Shown here one piece after another: positions 14,751 to 61,843 of a stretch of 64,000 nucleotides of DNA. The notes under the pieces were generated by a model, which saw nothing but the letters and a program-made list of their open reading frames with translations, was not told where the DNA came from and made no database searches. Position numbers and translations under genes: made by a program. The stretch is from contig NZ_CP049934.1 of assembly GCF_011382965.1 (NCBI RefSeq), forward strand, positions 310,001 through 374,000, given 5' to 3'. Each line of letters starts with the position of its first letter. The stretch's first letter is position 1. Source of the DNA: Leucobacter insecticola (GTDB lineage: Bacteria; Actinomycetota; Actinomycetes; Actinomycetales; Microbacteriaceae).

Positions 14751-16030
14751 ATGTCGAGTCACGAAACCGAGGCCACCGAAGTCCTCGTCGTTGGCGGCGG
14801 GCAGGCGGGGGTCGCGATGAGCGAACACCTCAGCGCTCGCGGAATTCCCCACATCGTCCTTGAGCGTCATCGGATCGCCGAGCGGTGGCGCTCCGAACGC
14901 TGGGATTCACTGGTCGCGAACGGGCCAGCCTGGCACGACCGCTTCCCCGGCCTGGAATTCGAGTGCGCCCCTGACGCCTTCGCACCAAAGGATCAGGTCG
15001 CCGAGTACTTTGAGCGCTATGCGGCGCAGATCAACGCACCGATCCGCTGTGGCGTGGAGGTGACCGAAGTGCGCAAGCGCATCGGGGAACCCGGCTACCG
15101 CGTCGAAACGTCCGCCGGCCCGATCCACGCCCGCTACGTCGTGGCCGCAACCGGAGCGTTTCAGCTCCCGGCGATCCCCCCGATTGTGCCGGCTGACCCT
15201 GCACTGACTCAGATTCATTCACGCGACTATCGCAACCCGCAGCAACTCCCGGAGGGCGGCGTGCTGGTTGTCGGCGCTGGATCGTCAGGGGTGCAGATCG
15301 CCGCTGAGCTGCGACAAGCGGGCCGCGAGGTCACGCTCGCTGTCGGGCCACACGATCGCCCACCGCAGCGTTACCGCGGCCGCAGCTTCGTATGGTGGCT
15401 CGGGGTGCTCGGCAAGTGGGACGCTGCGGCCCCGCCCGAAGGCGCCGAACACGTCACCATCGCCGTCAGCGGCGCAAATGGCGGCCACACCGTCGATTTC
15501 CGAGATCTCGCGGCGAGCGGGATCACGCTCGTGGGTCGGGCGAACGGCTTCGCCGATGGCGTCATGGCGTTTGGGAGCGACCTCGCGGAGAATATCCGCC
15601 TGGGCGATGAGAACTACCTGTCGCTCCTCACCGAGGCGGACGCCTACATCGCCCGCGAGGGTCTCGATCTCCCGAGGAGCCCGAGGCGCACGTGCTGGGC
15701 GCCTATCCCGCCTGCGTGACCGACCCGATCCACGAACTCGATCTACGGGCCGCCGGCATCACCTCGATCGTGTGGGCGACGGGATTTCACGTTGATTACA
15801 GCTGGCTCAAAGTGGAGGCGCTCGACACGAACGGGCGTCCCTTGCATCAGCGCGGGGTATCGCCGGAACCGGGCGTCTACTTCCTGGGATTGCCGTGGCA
15901 ATCGCGTCGCGGATCGACCTTCATCTGGGGGGTCTGGCACGATGCGAAGTATCTCGCGGACCAGATCGAGATCCAGCGCGGCTACCGGGCCTATCAGCCA
16001 GCAGCCGCACAGATGGTGGCTGCACCCTAG
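14751..16030 (+). CDS. FAD-dependent flavin monooxygenase (TrkA/CzcO-like); apparent -1 frameshift
   Basis: About 426 residues. It carries the FAD motif VLVVGGGQAGVAMSEHL, the NADPH motif VLVVGAGSSGVQIAAEL and the segment VWATGFHVDYSWL typical of single-component flavin monooxygenases related to CzcO. The frame breaks at the C run 15671-15673; one more C gives DLPEEPEAHVLGAYPACVTDPI. The ATG at 14751 is chosen because the FAD motif follows at normal distance (residue 11). It may oxidise nitrogen or sulfur compounds, but there is no neighbour that fixes a substrate. The preceding 14553-14750 holds no gene. Confidence 0.82.
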
Positions 16031-16052
16031 TCTTCGCCGCGGCTAGTTCGCA

Positions 16053-16105
16053 ATGAAATGCACTAATATTTGTACAGCAAGTGTACTAATATTAGTGCAT
16101 TTCAT
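16053..16105. promoter_or_regulatory. Long palindrome in front of the ATPase-TIR gene
   Basis: Arms 16053-16076 and 16082-16105 are 24-bp inverted repeats with one mismatch and a 5-base GCAAG loop. The arms are AT-rich (TAATATT core), unlike the flanks. The element ends where the -10 box TATAGT (16105-16110) begins, 8 bases before the ATG, so a protein bound here would block or control this promoter; in RNA from upstream it would form a stable hairpin. Confidence 0.8.
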
Positions 16106-16118
16106 ATAGTGTGATGTC

Positions 16119-17935
16119 ATGGTCGAGACATACAACCCCGTGCACCGCCCGCTCGGCGATTGGCTCCTCTCCCACGCAGGCAGCCAAGTACTCATCCTTG
16201 AAGGTGCTCGTGCTGTCGGCAAGACAACTCTGGTCAAGCAGCAACTCGCACGTACTCACGGCTTTCACTACGTCACCCTTGCGGACCAACCGACGCGGGC
16301 TCTCGCCACAGCTGATCTCCGCGGCTGGCTGAGACGTCTTCCCCTACCGCTCATCATTGATGAAGCCCAGATGATCGCGGAACTCCCGCTTGAGGTCAAA
16401 GAATATACGGATGAACACGGTGTCTCCGGCAACATCGTGCTTACAGGCTCCGCTTCCATCGGACGCACCGGCCTCGGTGGTGCCGACCCGCTCGCCCGCC
16501 GCGCAGTCCGAAGAACCCTGCATCCCCTCACTCTCTGGGAACGTCGGGAACAGCCCGGTTCCCTCGTCGACTCGCTCTTTGACGGCACGCCGCAGCTTCG
16601 ACGCCAGGGTGAACTGCAAGACGAAGAGTTGCTGACACTGCTGCGCAGGGGCGGCTTCCCCAAATACGTTGTCGCAGATCACGCCAACACGATCGACGCG
16701 CTGCGAGTCCAGATTGCGTCAGACATCGCAGCGGTACTCTCAGACACCGTTCTCCCCGAGTATGATCTCAACCCCAGCAAAGCGCGCGCGACGCTGAACC
16801 GCCTACTCAGGGGCCCAGGCGGAATTCTCAACGCTGCCGGGATCGGGCGAGAGATCGAGATCGACAAACGAACCATCGAACGACATCTGCACACCTTCGG
16901 CAGGCTCTTCCTATTGCAGTGGCTTCCCAATCTTGCTCTGCCACCACAAAAGCAGAGCTTCGCACGCGCAAAGATACATCCGGTTGATACGTCTTTCGCG
17001 GTCGACGCGCTTGAGCGAGCTGGCGTGCACATTCTGACGCAGCGTGAATACTTCGGACAACTCCTCGAGAGCCATGTTGTGTGCGAAGTTCTGGCGAATG
17101 CTCAATGGGCCAACCGTCAGATCGAGGCGTACTACTGGCGTCAGGCGAGCAGCTCGAATCCCGAGGTCGATCTGGTCATCATCGATGAGCGCGATCGCGA
17201 GATCGCCATCGAGGTGAAGGCTGCCACACAGATCTACCCTGCAGACCTCAAGGGCATCCGCGCATACGCCAAGCAGCGCAAGATGCATCGTGGGTTTGTC
17301 TTTTACCGAGGCGAAGAGGTGGTGCGTCTCGATGACAACATCTGGGCACTCCCCTATTCCGCGCTCGGTAATGTTGCATTCTTCACCGAGGCACCCCAGC
17401 CCGACCCACCAAGCAGCGTCATGTCAGGTCTCATCTGGGATGAGCTCACGGACACCGAAGCAGTCCTGATGCCAGCTTTCCTACCTGAGGACAATACCGC
17501 ACTGCACGGAAAGATCGAGGCCTTTGTGCAAGATGTTGCCGCGAGCTACGGCCTTCTCTTCGGCGGCAAGGTTCACGTCTCATCCACCCGTTCCGAGGGC
17601 AGAGCCGTCGGCCACGGAATCCAGACCGTGCCCACGGTGTTTATGCCCGCAATCACCCCCGCTTCTTCAAGAGTGTCCCTCACCAGCAAGATCTGCTCAG
17701 TTTTTCGGAAGGAGCGACCAGCGTCTCCCAACGACATGTCGTGCCGCTGGTCTGGGTTGATTCGCCGCAGATGCGAAGCACGGCGCTAGCGGAGGTCTCC
17801 CAAGCGCTCGACATCCACCCCAGTTTTGATGTAACCCAGGCCCGCACGCTCGATCCGAGCTCACCGGAGTACCGCCGTTTGGTTGAGCAGTGCGCGCACC
17901 TTCTTCACGAGGTCCTCACAAGCATGCCCCAGTGA
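16119..17935 (+). CDS. AAA ATPase-DUF4143 protein with C-terminal TIR-like domain; apparent -1 frameshift
   Basis: About 605 residues after joining. Residues 25-85 hold an AAA_14 ATPase with Walker A EGARAVGKTTL and Walker B PLIIDEAQ; a winged-helix part follows, then a DUF4143/PD-(D/E)XK-like segment with NPEVDLVII and EIAIEVKAA near 340-370. From about 440 to the end is a TIR-like region: LHGKIEAFVQDVAASYGLL, TVFMPAITP, a LLSF helix, VVPLVWVD and a last LLHEVL helix. Adding one C at 17657-17661 turns the break into ITPRFFKSVPHQQDLLSF, the family pattern, except that the usual Cys and acidic Glu of the SxxCxxEL helix are replaced by His and Asp. TIR domains bind or cleave NAD in immune proteins, so a defence role is possible; NADase activity is uncertain here. 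Start is near-leaderless. Confidence 0.75.
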
Positions 17936-17968
17936 CGCACTACCACGATCAACTGACGCGCGCCACGC

Positions 17969-18676
17969 CTACTCCGCGAGCCGCCGCGCCACCACCACGG
18001 TATCGCGCAGCATCGCGACAGTGCCGTCCGGGCCTGTCGCCTCGCGCTCCCGCACCTCCGCGACCTCAACCTGCCAGCGCTTCGGGTCAAGGGCGAGCGC
18101 TGCGAGTTCGCTGTCGGGGCTCGGAAAGTCGGCGTGGCTGTGTTGGTGCTGGGCGCGGAGCCCCGCGGCCCACGGCGGCCCCTCAGCATGCGAGACCACT
18201 ACCAGGTGCCCACCCGCCGCGACACGATCGGCCGCGGCGCGCAGGACTCGCTCACGGGGCAGCTCAACGGGTGATTGCAGAAAGCTCGCGGCAATGAGGT
18301 CGTAGCGGTCGTCGGGTGCAGGATCCTCGCCCGCCCACGCCGCGAGATCATGCGCGGCGAATGCCGCTCGATCCACCCCGAGCCCACGCGCTTCGGCCTC
18401 GGCGCGCGCCCGCGCCACGGCGGTCGGTGACAAATCAATTCCCTGCGCCCGCCAGCCGTTTTCAGCGAGCCACAACACGTCGCCGCCTTCGCCGCAGCCG
18501 AGATCAAGCGCCCGCCCGGGCCGCCAGCCGGAGACGATATCGGAAAGGGTGCGATTCACACGCCCCGACCACACGCGCTCTTCGCCCGCGTAACGCTGCT
18601 CCCAAAACTCGGCCGGGTCTGTGTTCGAGGCCGACGAATCATCGTGAGGGGAGTGACTACGCGCGTGCTCTGTCAT
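17969..18676 (-). CDS. Class I SAM-dependent methyltransferase
   Basis: 235 residues from ATG at 18676; the frame runs further upstream but without a signal. The start of the core reads FWEQRYAGEERVWSGRVN, followed by the SAM motif LDLGCGEGGDVLWLA and the GIDLSPTAVARA acidic strand, then DRYDLIAASFLQSP. This layout resembles tellurite-resistance/thiopurine-type small-molecule methyltransferases. It lies convergent to the ATPase-TIR gene, with only 33 bases between. The substrate is not known. Confidence 0.8.
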   Translation of the reverse strand: MTEHARSHSPHDDSSASNTDPAEFWEQRYAGEERVWSGRVNRTLSDIVSGWRPGRALDLGCGEGGDVLWLAENGWRAQGIDLSPTAVARARAEAEARGLGVDRAAFAAHDLAAWAGEDPAPDDRYDLIAASFLQSPVELPRERVLRAAADRVAAGGHLVVVSHAEGPPWAAGLRAQHQHSHADFPSPDSELAALALDPKRWQVEVAEVREREATGPDGTVAMLRDTVVVARRLAE

Positions 18677-18760
18677 GCTTCCAGAATGACCAAACCGTGC
18701 GACAAAGGCAACTCGATTTGCGGTCTCGGCAAGAGGGACGCATGGGCGCACTACCGCGAA

Positions 18761-19063
18761 CTACTCCGTCAGATCGACGCAGGCGCGCGACACGGTCCGC
18801 TGCTTCACCACATCAACGGCGGCAAGGTGTTCGGGATGCACCGCATACGCCGCAAGCGCCCCGGCGTCGTCGTGGAGGCTCACGAGCGTCAGATCCCAGT
18901 TGTCCTCGTGGTTGAGGGTGTTGCGGTGCAATTTCAGCGACTGCAGGCCGGGTACGCGCCCCACCAGCGGTTCAAGCACCGCCGCGATTTCGGCTGCTTG
19001 CGCATCACGATCGGCGACGCTCTCGCCGCTGAGTTTCCAGGTCACAATGTGGCGAACGGTCAC
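18761..19063 (-). CDS. Dabb-family (stress-responsive A/B barrel) protein
   Basis: 100 residues from GTG with GGAGACG in front. The opening TVRHIVTWKL and the end VHPEHLAAVDVVK match the dimeric alpha/beta barrel family, where the HPxH segment is conserved. The family has mixed or unknown biochemical roles. It lies directly after the glutaredoxin-like gene and is probably co-transcribed. Confidence 0.8.
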   Translation of the reverse strand: MTVRHIVTWKLSGESVADRDAQAAEIAAVLEPLVGRVPGLQSLKLHRNTLNHEDNWDLTLVSLHDDAGALAAYAVHPEHLAAVDVVKQRTVSRACVDLTE

Positions 19064-60381: not shown

Positions 60382-61629
60382 TCAGGGCCCCAACGCGGTA
60401 ATGGGGACAACATGAACACCGTCGGCGCGAAGCCCCGCGTGCCCTGAAGATGTGATGACGCACAGTGCAGCGGGGTCCCCGTGCCGCGAGGTGTCAATCT
60501 TCTCGGCGAACCTGAGCAAAGATGCCGCGGCGGCGTCTGCGTCTCTCGGGTTGAGCTTCACCTCGCATGCCGCCCAGGATCCATCGGGCAATGTCACAAC
60601 GGCATCAATCTCATGTCCGTTTGAATCTCGCCATGATTCGACGACTCCACGCAGTGGCTCCGAATACACCCGGAGATCCCGAATCACCAATGACTCGAAA
60701 TAGAACCCTGCGGCACGGGGATCCTTTCTGAGCGCTTCAGTTCCCAACCCAAGCGCGGCCATGCCGACTGACGGATCCACGAAGTACCGCACCGGAGCTT
60801 TCCGTAGACGCACGCCGGAACGCATATGCGGTCGCCATGCTTCTGAATCATCGGTCAGCCCCAATCTTGCGAGCGTGTCGAGATAGCCAGCAATGGTCGA
60901 AACCGCCGCAGCCTCACCACCACCAACGTCCTTCGCAAGTTCGGAGAGCTTGATCGGTTGCCCAGTGCCCCGTGCCAGAGAAGCCAGCAGCCGCTGAAGC
61001 CGCCTGGGCTGTCTGCGATGCCCCAGAGAGGGAACATCAACCTCAACCATTTGCTTCAAATAGTCACTGACCCACTCTCGCGCGTCACTTTCATTTGCAT
61101 CGATGAGTTCAGGCCAGCCGCCAATGACGATGCGCTCTAGTAACCCTTGATAGGCGATCTCCGCGGAGACTCCGCGCTGCGCTTCTCCGCTCAGCAGCGC
61201 CTGCAGAGAGACACTGCCCGTCGAGTGCCCCGATTCGAAAAGACTCATAGGTCGCATTCGGATGGTGCCAATACGCCCCGATCCAGAATGACGAGCCACG
61301 TCGTCGCGAGGGGTGGCGGATCCGGTCAGGATGAACTGCCCACGCTCGCTCCGATCATCAACCTCCCGGCGTACCGCATTCCAGATGGCCGGCGCGATTT
61401 GCCATTCATCAAACAGAATTGGCGGCTCACCTGCGAAGAGCGCTCCCTGGTCAAGCTCGAGCATCGCCCTGGCTGTGTGATCTTGGTCCAACCGCACCAC
61501 CGTTCGCGCCAGCTGCGATGCGGTTGCAGTTTTCCCGCACGCCTTTGGTCCCTCGATCACGACCGCTCCCATGCGCCCGAGACGAGCGGTCAACTGACGA
61601 TCTGCTACCCGTGGGAGATAAGCCTTCAT
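60382..61629 (-). CDS. AAA/DUF4143 ATPase
   Basis: 415 residues from MKAYLPRVADRQLTARLGRM. Walker A EGPKACGKTATASQLA, a Walker B-like ILFDEWQ, the sensor TGSATPRDD, a winged helix, and a PD-(D/E)XK-type end (NGHEIDAVVTLPDGSWAACEVKL). It lacks the TIR tail of the other DUF4143 protein in this window. ATG is 6 bases after TACAAT, a leaderless start. The family is common and its role is largely unknown. Confidence 0.85.
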   Translation of the reverse strand: MKAYLPRVADRQLTARLGRMGAVVIEGPKACGKTATASQLARTVVRLDQDHTARAMLELDQGALFAGEPPILFDEWQIAPAIWNAVRREVDDRSERGQFILTGSATPRDDVARHSGSGRIGTIRMRPMSLFESGHSTGSVSLQALLSGEAQRGVSAEIAYQGLLERIVIGGWPELIDANESDAREWVSDYLKQMVEVDVPSLGHRRQPRRLQRLLASLARGTGQPIKLSELAKDVGGGEAAAVSTIAGYLDTLARLGLTDDSEAWRPHMRSGVRLRKAPVRYFVDPSVGMAALGLGTEALRKDPRAAGFYFESLVIRDLRVYSEPLRGVVESWRDSNGHEIDAVVTLPDGSWAACEVKLNPRDADAAAASLLRFAEKIDTSRHGDPAALCVITSSGHAGLRADGVHVVPITALGP

Positions 61630-61843
61630 CCCCGAATTGTAGCCCACGGGCGAACTAATCTACGATTTTGCATGCACGTAAACTAGCTTTTTTCATACTC
61701 ACAAACTAGTATTTTGCATAACTTCAATCTTGTCTTTTGCATACGCGCTTCGCTTGGTCGCATGGATCTTCGAAGCTGACGGGCATGCGAACCCCCGGCG
61801 CCTCTGGCACACTGGAAGAGCATGGGGGAGGAGGAAGCAAGCA

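Follow-up and report, generated by a model that had tools for sequence, protein, structure and literature searches.

A PDC-S01-type ATPase gene of Leucobacter insecticola with a decaying TIR domain and a private upstream repeat array

We analysed a 64,000-nucleotide stretch of the Leucobacter insecticola genome, referred to here as the window. Our data indicate that one of its genes is probably a PDC-S01-type ATPase whose ancestor carried a TIR effector and a helical bundle and regulated its own expression; the TIR output appears to have been lost and the operator kept. An earlier note on this DNA had called the protein a possible undescribed immune or stress protein. This holds for the TIR-fused branch of PDC-S01 and for the upstream arrays, which we did not find in the open-access literature, but not for the ATPase part, which is the listed defence candidate PDC-S01.

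The window gene and its TIR remnant

The coding features of the gene are as follows.

16119-17789, forward strand: open reading frame as encoded, 556 aa, ATG at 16119
16185-16541, forward strand: AAA_14 ATPase domain (Pfam E 7.6e-17, residues 23-141), Walker A and B intact
16770-17222, forward strand: DUF4143, PD-(D/E)XK-like (Pfam E 1e-22, residues 218-368)
17469-17594, forward strand: TIR remnant, first part, in the ATG frame (16.3 bits, profile of 20 relatives)
17655-17661, forward strand: frame break inside the TIR remnant, approximate, adjoining a short homopolymer run
17654-17920, forward strand: TIR remnant, second part, in the second frame (39.6 bits, E 2.5e-12)

The AAA_14 ATPase and the DUF4143 domain that the earlier note had read from the letters were both recovered by Pfam, and the motifs GARAVGKTT and IIDEAQ and the EVD...EVK pair, which we take to be typical of PD-(D/E)XK folds, are intact in the window protein (E349, D351, E365 and K367 are present). 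The ATPase-DUF4143 part scores 519 bits. A single gene joining AAA_14 with Walker A and B to DUF4143 is what defines PDC-S01, presumably the same family as COG1373, and the window protein has this composition; its residues 22-417 match the PDC-S01 model of PADLOC (PDLC04790, E 1.1e-78). That model, the best in PADLOC, has 422 positions and covers only the ATPase-DUF4143 part. A weak nSTAND_NTPase5 match (E 0.2) also appeared in the Pfam scan. The proposed winged helix fared less well: in L008, L032 (Subtercola) and L036 (Agreia), the three relatives scanned, HTH models reach E 0.02-0.14, but no HTH or winged-helix model was found in the window protein by Pfam at E<=10.

We built a TIR profile from 20 intact relatives (described below) and scanned the six frames of 15500-19000. 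The two pieces listed above are collinear and in the expected order, the second matching profile positions 75-165, and no further piece exceeded 0.3 bits (best domain) in that scan. No frame at the window locus matches the WGxxW region, profile positions 49-74, and the C-terminal helical bundle, approximately 150 aa in relatives, is absent there (best 1.8 bits). The TIR homology of the window copy is detectable solely through this profile: Pfam gave no TIR or TIR_2 match in either window-frame piece at E<=10, and hence none at the gathering score, and neither PADLOC nor NCBIfam, NF040588 included, found anything in the second-frame piece. The single chain with a C-terminal TIR domain claimed earlier is therefore borne out as homology, but it is split over two frames. 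One frame running through ATPase, DUF4143, TIR and helical bundle, which characterises the TIR-fused branch, is found in the 20 relatives and not in the window. Likewise, the break that had been attributed to one missing base at 17657-17661 does lie near 17655-17661, but the unmatched positions 49-74 and the missing bundle go beyond a single base.

The second frame is open from 17489 to 17932 (444 nt), and its G+C at the three codon positions (.68/.42/.70) is close to that of the ATPase part (.69/.43/.67). Since this composition is still coding-like, the break is either recent or an error of sequencing or assembly. At the TIR motif position the second frame reads SVPHQQD and thus lacks SxxCxxE with its Glu, which we assume to be the motif of catalytic (NADase-type) TIR domains; SxxC[RK]xE is kept in 20/20 intact relatives, which upholds the reported change of Cys to His and of Glu to Asp. 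Compared with its six nearest intact relatives, the window copy is 23-30% identical in the TIR and 50-54% in the ATPase part, a TIR/ATPase ratio of 0.43-0.58, while the 15 pairs among those six give 0.72-1.01. Over all 190 pairs of intact relatives the ratio has a mean of 0.88 and a minimum of 0.61. The window copy ranges from 0.39 to 0.85 against all 20, its values of 0.69 to 0.85 coming from five distant relatives with an ATPase identity of 33-36%. Given these low ratios, constraint on the window TIR appears relaxed, frame break aside. With its motif lost, a stretch unrecognisable, the bundle absent and divergence far above that of the ATPase part, the window TIR is, judged from sequence, a dead or dying effector, and the earlier doubt about its NADase activity was well placed. 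A retained role for the remnant is possible.

The Leucobacter insecticola genome consists of one contig (2.92 Mb) with 8 DUF4143 matches. The frame of one of these genes, near 914 kb, is interrupted, and another of the genes lies in the window:

60382-61647, reverse strand: second DUF4143 ATPase gene, 421 aa, TIR-less

Intact TIR-fused relatives and loss of the TIR

Among 100 related genomes, 18 contained a match to the window protein, and the sole match extending past query residue 432 was L008 (genome G097). The 796-aa product of L008 contains AAA_14, DUF4143 and TIR_2 (E 1.1e-9), and its C-terminal region matches no named Pfam family. When L008 was used as the query against 396 genomes of the phylum (E<=1e-30), the window's was the only match listed that reached into the TIR. 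A profile search of genome contigs, based on the aligned sequences of L008 and of the ATG-frame part of the window protein, gave 60 loci, or 61 with L008: 20 intact frames of approximately 800 aa, 3 fused genes with a broken frame (L048, L068 and L071) and 38 TIR-less loci, the last defined by the lack of a TIR-profile match in the DNA fetched around them. The broken frames give the impression of a gene type prone to decay.

In all 20 intact relatives a single frame covers AAA_14, DUF4143, TIR and a C-terminal helical bundle. Eighteen of them come from Actinomycetota and one from a MAG of Chloroflexota, and the last, L008, belongs to the window's order; their families include Microbacteriaceae, Propionibacteriaceae, Bifidobacteriaceae and Eggerthellaceae. 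The search for homologues with the same fusion thus answers the concern that these are ordinary DUF4143 genes followed by an unrelated ORF, and the ATPase-nuclease-TIR order noticed in the window proves to be conserved. In 19 aligned relatives the Walker residues, E344, D346, E360 and K362, which correspond to E349, D351, E365 and K367 of the window protein, and S520, C523 and E526 are invariant. TIR_2 lies above its cut-off in L008, L032 and L036, the E values of the two besides L008 being 4.6e-8 and 2.5e-8, and ThsB_TIR (PF08937), the TIR of Thoeris ThsB, was not found in L008 (E<=1), in L032 and L036 (E<=0.1) or in the window pieces (E<=10). Since the order is conserved and the TIR keeps the catalytic-type Glu in 20 relatives, the suggestion of an immune protein is reasonable for the family.

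In a 78-row tree of the ATPase part, 24 TIR-bearing genes (20 intact, 3 broken and the window gene) are interleaved with 27 TIR-less ones within one clade of 51 rows (support 100/99); therefore the TIR has probably been lost repeatedly. The TIR label changes 7 times over the whole tree, 4 of these being forced by starred branches, compared with a mean of 20.8 after shuffling. We infer that an early gain followed by repeated loss is the simplest course, because the TIR and bundle are homologous and occupy the same place. By path the window gene is nearest to L033, L031 and L036, although the open fork from which it branches lacks starred support.

Predicted structure and gene neighbourhood

For the Agreia protein, AlphaFold2 (pLDDT 82.7, pTM 0.55) predicts an alpha/beta domain at approximately 441-600 and a bundle of long helices at 627-788. 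Foldseek returned 14 chains at E<=0.001, among them several TIR domains. The best was SSO1545 (PDB 2fna, E 3.5e-5), an archaeal ATPase, as is PABY2304 (2qen), which is also among these first 14. The solved chains of both have approximately 350 residues, aligned over approximately 375 columns, which leaves no room for a TIR and a bundle. TIR matches included plant RPPT (7xoz, E 2.6e-4) and AbTir (7uxu, E 5.6e-3, TM 0.73 by target length). The intact relatives resemble these two in predicted fold and in the SxxCxxE motif; they differ in that their TIR sits between the ATPase-nuclease part and the helical bundle, and the window's is degenerate. The best NCBIfam result for L008, with no other model found, was the FxsC TIR-like protein (NF040588, E 1.6e-11), at 44.5 bits against a cut-off of 130; L008 is thus not a member.

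The genes flanking every intact locus except L008, no more than three on either side (101 neighbours at 19 loci), were scanned with PADLOC at E<=1e-8. Among the best 25 of 148 PADLOC models, mad2, mad3, LmuB and PDC-M03A matched two members each, and GajA, GajB, PDC-S28, IetA, IetS, AbiD, HamB, SspA, DndA and an amino-acid transporter appeared once each. The neighbours' Pfam families, among the matches listed, are mostly metabolic. The expected co-occurrence with defence islands turned out weak: defence neighbours are few and no partner gene is constant at the 19 loci, so the neighbourhood offers no defence-island argument.

Repeat arrays upstream of DUF4143 genes

Directly upstream of the window gene, outside the region covered by the earlier note, lies a near-perfect palindrome with a G+C content of 28%, compared with 63% for the window.

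16053-16105, no strand: near-perfect palindrome, 53 bp, 23/24 pairs with a 5-base centre
16059-16076, no strand: operator repeat 1, 18 bp, TGYACTAATATTWGTRCA
16082-16099, no strand: operator repeat 2, 18 bp, exactly 23 bp from repeat 1
16105-16110, forward strand: putative -10-like hexamer TATAGT, touching the palindrome end, 8 bp 5' of the ATG at 16119
61656-61743, reverse strand: repeat array of four 23-bp units upstream of the 60382-61647 gene, unlike the first array in sequence

The palindrome presumably adjoins the promoter of the window gene; a scan with the sigma-70 consensus found no promoter there and did not pick up TATAGT. In the genome, the unit of repeats 1 and 2 occurs with at most one mismatch only at its own pair, and one more site appears at three mismatches.

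The upstream regions of the relatives contain a related 17-bp palindrome, near TGTACATCSRATGTACA. With at most one mismatch, this core has 58 sites in the 61 upstream regions (36/61 loci), compared with 6.2 in shuffles and with 2 sites in 58 control windows, and all 18 loci with at least two core sites have a pair spaced by 23 bp. The core is present upstream of 11 of the 20 intact fused genes. In these 20 genes a lag of 23 is best or joint-best in 10; at a score of at least 11 the top lag is 23 in three and 43-44 in two, the rest scoring lower.

We then scored the best self-repeat lag (12-59) upstream of DUF4143 genes generally, with a threshold score of at least 11. From 174 bacterial loci we removed 11 that were superseded or duplicate and a further 10 (9 without a usable gene or upstream region and 1 duplicate), which gave 153 genes. 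Of these, 78 reached the threshold: 52 at lag 23, 8 at lag 22, 9 at 32-33, 5 at 43-46 and 4 at other lags. Control upstream regions reached it in 78 of 461 cases, spread over the lags, with three at lag 23 and three at 22. The score alone is therefore weak evidence, and it is the concentration at few lags that is informative. For lag 23 the difference (52/153 against 3/461) has a Fisher p of 3e-31, although the genes are related and not independent. Without the 60 profile-search loci, 94 genes remain, with 25 at lag 23, 8 at 22 and 9 at 32-33 at the same threshold. A period of 32-33 bp, approximately three helical turns, was seen in L100, L113, L131, L178 and L179.

All eight DUF4143 genes of the window's own genome (L001, L095 and L169-L174 of G000) have a period of 22 or 23 at a score of at least 11, and their repeat units are visibly different in sequence, each gene having its own. 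Three arrays of this genome, searched genome-wide, occur with at most one mismatch only at their own gene. Among 24 DUF4143 genes of Chloroflexota, 7 reach score 11. Seventeen plasmid-borne DUF4143 genes, chosen from match lists for diversity, have best lags of 22-23 (6 genes), 33 (2), 44 (3) and other values (6); at a score of at least 11 there are five at 22-23, one at 33 and two at unrelated lags. Arrays are weak or absent in the Thermus (best lag 46, score 8.8), Thiothrix, Allochromatium and Granulicella plasmid copies.

Proposed mechanism and alternatives

We propose an ancestor built of AAA_14, a winged-helix-like region, a PD-(D/E)XK-like DUF4143 domain and a C-terminal TIR with its bundle. 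In intact relatives the protein would bind its private repeat array, whose 23-bp spacing is approximately two helical turns, and, as the position of the array suggests, repress its own promoter. A signal linked to infection may then drive ATP-dependent assembly of the ATPase, and the clustered TIR domains would cleave NAD+ and halt the cell. The window copy would have retained the ATPase/nuclease part and the operator, its TIR output gone and that coding sequence decaying, and the same loss has probably recurred within the clade. The sequences themselves show the architecture, its conservation, the decay and the array; binding to the array, self-repression, the trigger, the assembly and the NADase activity are the proposed part. 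A more general reading, which we put forward tentatively as falling just short of probable, is that DUF4143/PDC-S01 ATPases are self-addressed: a private phased array (22-23 or 32-33 bp), present at the promoter of many of these genes, would be read by the gene's own protein, the DNA-bound state would control the effector (TIR in one branch, the nuclease fold in most), and the window gene would have discarded the effector while keeping the address.

The TIR part could alternatively be a non-catalytic module for binding or oligomerisation, with the frame break a sequencing error or a programmed frameshift. The 444-nt open second frame with its ATPase-like codon-position composition, and the 39.6-bit match, are in line with this; however, the TIR is far less like its relatives than the ATPase part is, profile positions 49-74 and the bundle are missing, and the 20 intact relatives, being encoded in a single frame, have no need of frameshifting, all of which makes this reading unlikely in our judgement. 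A pseudogene of the whole window gene, to which the broken TIR and the three other broken fused copies could point, is less probable still, since the ATPase-DUF4143 part scores 519 bits, keeps its motifs and is 50-54% identical to the six nearest relatives, intact genes without a TIR are common among the relatives, and the operator is present. We give almost no credence to the simplest alternative, an ordinary DUF4143 protein followed by an unrelated ORF with a TIR likeness due to chance. The silence of Pfam, PADLOC and NCBIfam on the window pieces is what speaks for it, but it is refuted by the two collinear TIR-profile matches in the expected order, and intact fused relatives exist whose ATPase part is up to 54% identical.

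The arrays, for their part, might be bound by a different regulator, or be the target of the DUF4143 nuclease fold if this behaves as a selfish or homing element, and not serve autorepression. That they vary from gene to gene even in one genome, and that several plasmid-borne copies adjoin transposase or recombinase genes, fits this explanation; but they sit just upstream of the start, and the three arrays searched have no scattered copies with at most one mismatch in the genome. We therefore consider this explanation rather improbable and keep self-regulation as the preferred reading.

PDC-S01 and other forms of the fusion

PDC-S01 comprises approximately 40,000 genes. The passage of PMC12988326 that deals with it ranks it with the most common defence candidates of prokaryotes. 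It is presented as a phage-defence candidate, and the passages concerned give no mechanism (PMC12988326, PMC13356809); they mention ATPase and PD-(D/E)-X-K parts and neither a TIR nor repeats. The TIR-bearing branch suggests an output that the ATPase can trigger, namely NAD+ loss, and the private upstream array suggests what a PDC-S01 protein binds. Together, they render the mechanism of PDC-S01 testable. Furthermore, the window copy and its TIR-less sister genes suggest that the ATPase and the operator can outlast the effector.

In a tblastn search of plasmids and phages with L008, no record covered 80% of the fused protein, and partial matches occurred in 199 and 3 records, respectively. A C-domain match in L042 (E 0.008) is WXG100-like and was rejected. 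In a single case, from Chloroflexota (L146:96-1223, reverse strand), a TIR protein gene lies directly 3' of a plain DUF4143 gene, possibly a two-gene form of the fusion. DUF4143 genes are strongly expanded in two genomes, with 35 matches in the 2.0-Mb genome of L043 (G493) and 17 in the 1.8-Mb genome of L030 (G494).
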